From a virus, in the IMG/VR virus record IMGVR_UViG_3300008459_000447, positions 1 through 22,450 of that record: a stretch of DNA of 22,450 nt; one strand, given 5' to 3'. Below the pieces are notes generated by a model that was given only the letters and a program-made list of their open reading frames with translations, was not told the origin of the DNA and made no database searches. Both the position numbers and the translations under genes were made by a program. Shown here in pieces: positions 460 through 847 of this stretch; position 1 is the stretch's first letter; each line of letters opens with the position of its first letter.

Positions 460-531
460 GCCTTGTTAGCACAGCGGTAGTGCATCTGTTTTGTAAACAG
501 AGGGTCGTCAGTTCAAATCTGACACAAGGCT
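460..531 (+). tRNA. tRNA-Thr (anticodon TGT)
   Basis: The cloverleaf is complete. The acceptor stem GCCTTGT pairs with ACAAGGC, the D-stem is GCAC/GTGC, the anticodon loop TTTGTAA gives anticodon TGT (reads ACA), and the T-arm is GTCAG-TTCAAAT-CTGAC. The discriminator base is T and CCA is not encoded. It is the first of the array, close behind a candidate promoter. Confidence 0.93.
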
Positions 532-536
532 CGCTT

Positions 537-619: not shown

Positions 620-750
620 TGGGTGCTAGTCCTAGTGACTAGGCATAGGCAACGGATTGGTAATAGACCTAATGATGCAACTCCGATAAACACTATTACA
701 TACAAGAAGTTATACTATGACTGTGCGGTTTAAATCCCACACACCCACCA
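620..750 (+). ncRNA. Structured tRNA-like segment with a tRNA-type 3' end
   Basis: At the 3' side, GTG(C)GG-TTTAAAT-CCCAC forms a T-arm with one bulged C, and ACACCCA (741-747) pairs with TGGGTGC (620-626) apart from one C-A mismatch; CCACCA ends the segment at 745-750. The distance between acceptor halves is about 130 bases, far beyond a normal tRNA. The interior contains a hairpin CTAGTC/GACTAG (626-631, 637-642), a D-arm-like stretch GGATTGGTAATAGACC, and a possible GTAATAG/CTATTAC stem. No clear anticodon loop can be assigned. It could be a tRNA with insertions or an intron, or a tRNA-mimicking RNA. It has no protein frame. Confidence 0.35.
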
Positions 751-755
751 ATTTT

Positions 756-842
756 AGAGGGTTGGCAGAGAGGCTTATTGCATCTGTCTTGAAAACAGAA
801 GTCGGGTTCACTCGACCACAGGTTCAAATCCTGTACCCTCTG
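756..842 (+). tRNA. tRNA-Ser (anticodon TGA)
   Basis: The acceptor AGAGGGT pairs with ACCCTCT. The anticodon loop CTTGAAA gives TGA (reads UCA). A long variable arm with a GTCG/CGAC stem is present as expected for serine tRNAs, and the T-arm is ACAGG-TTCAAAT-CCTGT. The discriminator is G, the usual serine identity base. CCA is not encoded. Confidence 0.93.
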
Positions 843-847
843 ATTTA

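Follow-up and report, generated by a model that had tools for sequence, protein, structure and literature searches.

The tRNA cluster of phage T4 encodes two small RNAs, rnaC (species 1 RNA, 139 nt) and rnaD (species 2, 119 nt), presented in a 2022 paper, with a Northern blot, as late-class 'RNAs of yet unknown functions' (PMC9697503). Other non-coding RNAs of phages and prophages, GOLLD and ROOL, are likewise of unknown function and often lie near tRNA islands, and many GOLLD members exceed 800 nt (PMC12286853). Phage M3 RNA and C4 antisense RNA are named as non-tRNA substrates of RNase P (PMC11143913). Finally, phage tRNAs can rescue from tRNA-cleaving defences; examples are T5 tRNA-Tyr, which acts against retron-Eco7, and tRNA-Lys, which acts against PrrC170 (PMC11555353). 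The element described below is, like the two T4 RNAs, a small RNA within a phage tRNA cluster. It resembles GOLLD and ROOL in lying near phage tRNA islands but is far below the length of many GOLLD members and is matched by neither Rfam model, and its kinship with M3 RNA and C4 RNA is one of presumed processing only.

The window analysed here, a stretch of 22,450 bases of viral DNA, encodes a SU10-type major capsid protein (Pfam SU10_MCP) and carries nine tRNA genes at positions 460-1466, on which ARAGORN and Rfam agree. Neither program calls a gene between tRNA-Thr(TGT) (460-532, plus strand), whose position upstream defines the slot here and in relatives, and tRNA-Ser(TGA) (755-843, plus strand), the downstream neighbour of the element. 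The element itself occupies 618-750 on the plus strand and consists of a TTT leader, the RNA and an ACCA tail; its score of 117.2 bits to our covariance model R1 is not independent, the window's sequence being one of the eight that built the model. A further 25 contigs have homologues at this slot. On these sequence comparisons, the element is very probably a phage-encoded, tRNA-like non-coding RNA of ~117-133 nt that has no anticodon and is conserved as such. A promoter scan placed one weak promoter-like site within it (687-716, plus strand), shuffled sequences averaging 2.0 per stretch. Two further features were seen at the far end of the array. A 14-pair inverted repeat at 1491-1523, just past the array, is listed as terminator-like on the minus strand. 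The last gene of the array, called as tRNA-Met(cat) (1392-1466), may be a tRNA-Ile with a CAU anticodon; 13 loci end in tRNA-Ile(tat) instead, and one relative (L003) has both tRNA-Met(cat) and tRNA-Ile(tat), which argues against a simple swap.

Comparison among relatives gave a fold in which an acceptor-like stem (P1) sits on a T-arm-like hairpin (P4), accompanied by a short hairpin at the D-arm position (P2) and a long two-part arm (P3a and P3b). The 5' strand of P1, GGGTG (621-625, plus strand), is invariant except for one GU and pairs with CACCC (742-746, plus strand), which runs on from P4 as in a tRNA. The preliminary description had noticed a longer pairing, TGGGTGC (620-626) with ACACCCA (741-747), which is present with six of its seven pairs, C626 standing opposite A741; only GGGTG/CACCC is general across the family. 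It had also correctly identified the 6-bp hairpin P2 (CTAGTC-ctagt-GACTAG, 626-642, plus strand), in which four of the six pairs show compensatory changes, and the T-arm-like hairpin P4 (TGTG(C)GG-TTTAAAT-CCCACA, 722-741, plus strand), in which C726 is bulged or mismatched. Compensatory changes affect three of the five P4 pairs, or four when a diverged group of four contigs (L179, L176, L180 and L181; the L179 group) is counted, and every cell is paired. The ACCA tail (747-750, plus strand) is found in 7 of the 19 distinct sequences of the family, the others ending in TCTT, TCTC, TCCT, TCTA, CCTA, CCTT or CCCT.

The long arm begins with P3a, in which CATAG (644-648, plus strand) pairs with CTATG (715-719, plus strand) and all six pairs of the model have changed on both sides. 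Above it lies the 7-bp long-range stem seen earlier, P3b, formed by GTAATAG (660-666, plus strand) and CTATTAC (693-699, plus strand); in relatives, helices of other letters with the same place and pairing were picked by eye, P3b being absent from the covariance model. The stretch GGATTGGTAATAGACC, once described as D-arm-like, forms no separate hairpin, its GTAATAG being the 5' strand of P3b. The apical loop of 26 nt (667-692, plus strand) contains AAUG and CCGAUA stretches common to part of the relatives. We likewise see no anticodon arm in the segment.

Taken singly, the window's sequence folds no better than chance. Its 620-750 segment reached -30.5 kcal/mol (z -1.07), with 38 of 200 shuffles as good, and inclusion of the leader (618-750) gave z -1.48. 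Single-sequence z values for 14 members ranged from -0.40 to -3.90 and were at or below -2 in nine, the window's not among these. A per-sequence test of the P3a helix was weak: the helix was reached by at most 8% of shuffles in 7 of 14 sequences (93 of 2000 for the window) and by 15-91% in the remaining seven. The fold is thus rated above chance because of the comparison among relatives rather than single-sequence energy.

Relatives were collected by several routes. A terminase search of viral contigs gave 60 related loci, diverged copies were revealed by BLAST and by direct reading of the spacer past tRNA-Thr, and a search for the pattern of the two conserved ends returned 25 stretches. L172 came from scans with internal pieces, and the L179 group from a scan that used a different element. 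The resulting family comprises 26 contigs with a full-length copy, the window counted, and 19 distinct sequences of 117-133 nt; two further copies (L009 and L017) cut by contig ends stand outside this count, and L075, L077, L078, L079 and L173, repeat fetches of one contig, were not recounted. Eight of the pattern matches (L065-L070, L072 and L073) were rejected, having no such array, no fold and no R1 match; one of these contigs, L068, carries two tRNAs, far from its pattern match.

tRNA-Thr(TGT) lies upstream on all 25 contigs with an intact copy of that gene, at a distance of 0-124 nt, and the contig L013 begins within the apparent last bases of tRNA-Thr. tRNA genes flank the element on both sides, and TTT immediately precedes P1 in 18 of the 19 distinct sequences, a feature that one of the scans demanded. 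Among loci picked independently of the sequence of the element, 12 of 14 terminase-related ones with tRNA-Thr(TGT) carry it downstream (exceptions L021 and L029), as do 10 of the 13 Thr-bearing loci from the scan with another element (exceptions L174, L175 and L178), the two sets overlapping. Its lack at these five loci indicates that the element is dispensable. In INPHARED the sole terminase match was phage C75C1 (33.5%), which had neither an annotated tRNA nor an R1 match. A pattern scan of bacterial genome contigs gave 79 matches, only two of which were matched by R1 at E <= 1 (best 17.5 bits, E 0.38), and given these scores all 79 were taken as chance; the pattern requires TTTGGGTGCT and CACMCACYC, so that members of the L179 type would escape it. 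The element family is a conserved structured RNA of the tRNA arrays in a clade of SU10-type phages. Judged from the open-access literature and Rfam 15, which does not amount to proof, it is undescribed, and ARAGORN and Rfam searches as used here pass over such elements. Within the clade, one locus (L016, 2072-2191) carries an element of the type found in L018 and L019, whose terminases are 80% identical to the window's, even though its own terminase is 90% identical to the window's, which suggests that parts of the arrays have been exchanged between phages.

The covariance model R1 was built from 8 sequences and contains 22 pairs. Over 81 sources it gave 27 matches at E <= 1, every one of which falls in the slot or where a contig end truncates it. 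The model also finds sequences that were left out of it, L013 with 57.7 bits and L016, L018, L019, L063, L064, L076 and L172 with 37-49 bits. In the model alignment of 18 distinct rows, which included two truncated ones but neither L172 nor the L179 group, 13 of the 22 pairs had changed on both sides with pairing kept; the covariation score was 0.364, compared to 0.115 in shuffled alignments and 0.03-0.08 when partners were slid, and 93.0% of cells were paired, compared to 37-57% with partners slid. In an alignment of 17 sequences that included L172, L179 and L176, 16 of the 22 pairs had changed on both sides, with a score of 0.545 (0.148 shuffled, 0.05-0.12 slid) and 92.4% of cells paired (35-55% slid). 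Both alignments were fitted to the model, a bias in its favour, and scores based on shuffling are inflated by the kinship of the sequences, the sample being 19 sequences. Of the helices, P3a fared worst in the model alignments, with only 74.5-76% of its cells paired and about a quarter unpaired.

Alignments made without structure point in the same direction as far as the score is concerned. In one of these (A3, 8 sequences), 6 of 22 pairs had changed in a compensatory manner compared to 2.6 in shuffles, with a covariation score of 0.182 compared to 0.094. In a second (A5, with 7 sequences of 93% identity), pairing was complete over the 189 cells and the score was 0.138 compared to 0.065 in shuffles; its compensated cells numbered 9 compared to 3.8, and its three compensated pairs, two in P2 and one in P4, were not above the shuffled mean of 2.6 (340 of 500 shuffles reached three). 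The count of pair types was a weak measure, reached by 71, 46 and 40 of 500 shuffles in A3 and the 18-row and 17-sequence alignments, respectively, and by 499 of 500 in A5. RNAalifold on the MAFFT alignment A1 recovered only 14 pairs, those of P1 and P4 and some of P2 out of register, since the P2 and P3 regions of the different groups are misaligned by MAFFT; hand reading of the members found P3a with 4-6 pairs and P3b with 3-7 pairs in every one. Comparative folding in related phages, a check that the preliminary description had proposed, thus yielded a common four-helix fold with pairing kept through compensatory changes.

Because the shape was kept while the letters changed, the element probably works as an RNA in its own right and is neither a broken nor an interrupted tRNA, as far as sequence comparison can tell. 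A functionless remnant of a decaying or duplicated tRNA might be expected to have an irregular shape and to be missed by tRNA finders, as this element is, and yet the compensatory changes in P2, P3a and P4 speak against such an origin, which we regard as highly unlikely.

The membership of the L179 group can be read in two ways. R1 scores were 25.4 bits for L179 and 22.7 bits for L176, L180 and L181 (E 0.0008 to 0.003), and the remaining hits of that search at E <= 1 fall on tRNA genes. The element of this group begins 3 nt after tRNA-Thr and has the helix order of the family in different letters (P1 GCGGGG/CCCCGC, P2 TCGT/ACGA, P4 GAGGGG/CCCCTC). Blastn between the group and other members found nothing better than E 0.3, and the global identity to the window of 0.62 is matched by the highest of 100 shuffles, whose mean was 0.55. 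The group is either a very diverged member, the grounds for homology being slot, architecture and a weak model score, or an unrelated tRNA-like RNA in the same slot; compensation in P1 depends on this group alone.

The preliminary description had offered three readings of the segment, of which a novel tRNA-mimicking RNA is upheld by the covarying four-helix fold in a fixed slot, whereas a tRNA with an intron or with insertions is not. According to the latter, an intron or insertion, later removed, would divide the anticodon arm, and indeed P1, P4 and P3a sit at the places of the acceptor, T and anticodon stems, with tRNA genes all around. We nevertheless consider an interrupted tRNA very improbable: no version lacking the intron was found in the slot, P2 is not a D arm and we read no anticodon. 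In a tRNA the D arm has a loop of about 8-11 nt with GG. In the 21 members read, the P2 hairpin has 4-6 bp and a loop of 4-7 nt that lacks GG; the loops of L063 and L064 are the GNRA tetraloops GTGA and GAAA, and that of L002 has 7 nt on 5 bp, as read from the sequence. No anticodon arm of 5 bp and 7 nt with U33 was readable in any member; P3a and P3b fill its position, with an apical loop of 26-38 nt across the family, and the ends of the would-be anticodon loop vary among members. P4 is continuous with P1 in 21 members and has a 6-bp stem and a 7-8-nt loop with TTC only in some; a C bulge or C-C mismatch is present in many members, relatives without the bulge having a 6-bp stem, and the P1/P4 stack departs from the 7+5 of a tRNA.

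ARAGORN in bacterial, intron, mitochondrial and tmRNA modes found nothing in 10 members, the intron mode (-i0,3000, introns up to 3000 nt) having been run with no positive control; at a lowered threshold its calls were scattered over both strands and mutually inconsistent, occurring in 5 of the 10 but not in the window's element. The Rfam search including introns and tmRNA that had been proposed along with the interrupted-tRNA reading gave no match at 618-750 at E up to 10, even to RF00005, and no intron or tmRNA match was found in the window's element or in those of L003, L005, L012 and L080. Known Rfam families, tmRNA and group I/II introns were therefore set aside as identities. The bacterial Y RNA YrlA (RF02553) gave only sub-threshold matches, on true tRNAs of the array and none at 618-750. 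No uninterrupted tRNA was found in the slot: in L174 and L175, tRNA-Ser(TGA) follows tRNA-Thr by 3 nt. A tRNA-Asn in the slot of L178 was considered as the uninterrupted version and rejected, being 84% like the tRNA-Asn that the window carries elsewhere in its array, besides the element, and matched by the elements only in short words.

A short frame in the P3 loop would make the element a minigene or tmRNA-like RNA, which is the least probable of the alternatives weighed. An AUG is present in the apical loop of the sequences read by eye, L013 excepted, but the frames differ (AUG-GCA-UAA in the L016 group, AUG AUG CAA CUC CGA UAA in the window, none in L013), the window has no visible ribosome-binding site upstream, and the tmRNA mode of ARAGORN and Rfam were negative.

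Several other tRNA-like segments were seen in these arrays. In the window, 538-613 (GAAGCGA...TCGCTTC) has a T-arm-like hairpin and a 4-bp D-like stem, is missed by the bacterial tRNA search and is called Tyr(gta) by ARAGORN in mitochondrial mode; a relative with a different middle arm lies elsewhere in the L003 array (2337-2414). A short segment between tRNA-Arg and tRNA-Gln (924-984, GACGGCA...TGCCGTC) has no tRNA call, and its slot in the near relatives L002 and L003 holds a different element, GACGCAT...ATGCGTC. The latter is a second conserved tRNA-like RNA of ~65 nt, found in L003 (2491-2555), L005 (2120-2183), L016 (2374 onward) and 12 more loci. It has an acceptor-like stem, a small D-like hairpin (GTTTA/TGAAT or GTGTA/TGCAT), a short middle hairpin with a 4-5-nt loop and a T-like arm of 6 bp with an 8-nt loop (GAAAGG/CCTTTC or AAGAGG/CCTCTT), with paired changes visible by eye. 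Between the element and tRNA-Ser, L012 (6492-6750) and L003 (2030-2250) have a structured stretch of ~220-260 nt with GCCGT/ACGGC as its closing strands; a T-arm-like hairpin stands close to its beginning, and Rfam gave no match at gathering scores. Between tRNA-Ser and tRNA-Arg, L005 (2040-2114) and L080 (reverse strand) have a tRNA-like segment, GAYGGCT...AGCCRTC, in both copies of which the 7-nt loop at the anticodon position is TACATAG, lacking U33, and the T-like loop is AGGAAGA. Finally, in the related array of L178, ARAGORN calls at 1156-1250 a tRNA whose anticodon is two bases long (tc) and whose anticodon loop thus has six.

In being encoded in a phage tRNA cluster and having a tRNA-like 3' domain, the family is like T4 species 1. 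rnaC has a stem that closes the ends, two more arms and a T arm on the 3' side, and the family resembles it in place and general shape; rnaC differs in that its T arm is a canonical one of 5 bp and 7 nt and in its long first arm. rnaC folds far better than its shuffles (z -4.57); the best fold of rnaD is no better than its shuffles (z -0.83) and has no T arm. R1 found no match over the T4 locus (L062) at E up to 1, and thus no sequence relation. The rnaC-rnaD region, used as a query that also included a piece of tRNA-Arg, matched 764 records, mostly of Escherichia and Shigella phages, with 80% or more of the query covered in 650, and belongs to a phage group other than that of the element family.

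We propose that the element is transcribed together with the tRNA array and would be freed by the tRNA-processing enzymes of the host, with RNase P cutting at UUU|G and RNase Z or trimming forming the 3' end. The TTT|G leader is the same sort of short spacer as that between the tRNAs of these arrays. RNase P acts on the acceptor/T-arm stack, from which we infer that the element is released together with the tRNAs; such joint processing is probable. The product would be a stable RNA resembling T4 species 1 RNA (rnaC). As a whole, conserved structure together with processing is a likely explanation of the element, a judgement that leaves aside the decoy role discussed below. A different use of the same enzymes would make the element a processing module: by recruiting RNase P and RNase Z to the spacer that follows tRNA-Thr, its fold would secure correct excision of the adjoining tRNAs. 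Its location between tRNAs and the spacer of only 0-3 nt to tRNA-Thr in several loci are in keeping with such a module. Against it, L174, L175 and L178, which lack the element, have the next tRNA 3-7 nt past tRNA-Thr, and a mere spacer needs no conserved arm of 64-79 nt, making this explanation improbable.

What a released RNA of this kind might do is suggested by its parts. With the ends of a tRNA and no anticodon, it cannot decode. The single likeliest mechanism, and the least certain part of our explanation, is that the element would act as a decoy that engages a factor recognising the acceptor/T-arm minihelix, possibly a host enzyme that handles or attacks tRNAs, with the long arm P3 giving specificity or stability; we put this forward tentatively. 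Alternatively, the element could be a stable regulatory RNA whose tRNA-like ends function in release and protection alone and whose P3 loop pairs with an RNA of host or phage or binds a regulator. The decoy fits the conserved tRNA-like ends, and a regulatory RNA fits the shared stretches of the P3 loop, the large loop of the long arm being where the shared unpaired stretches lie; there is also a precedent in C4 antisense RNA of phage, listed in the review cited above (PMC11143913) among RNase P substrates. On the other hand, a test of six loci, each searched with its own loop and not always a whole genome, found complements of at most 9 nt, a length that shuffled loops reach as well. Regulation is slightly the more credible of the two, though still rather unlikely, its standing being a joint one for a bundle of mechanisms and that of the decoy belonging to one mechanism.

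A more speculative extension is that the anticodon-less tRNA mimic represents a new class of phage counter-defence RNA, which we think unlikely. Freed from the array in bulk, the mimic would then occupy tRNA-cutting toxins, defence nucleases or processing enzymes of the host and would itself escape inactivation at an anticodon. The rescue tRNAs mentioned at the outset are true tRNAs that supplement the cut one, whereas an element lacking an anticodon could act by binding only. If this were true, the other odd tRNA-like RNAs of these arrays and T4 rnaC and rnaD would belong to the same strategy. Since a second phage group, with no detected sequence relation, keeps such an RNA, diverged enough for covariation to back its fold, tRNA-like RNAs may recur in phage tRNA arrays, and the present family offers a fold, ends and a loop to test.
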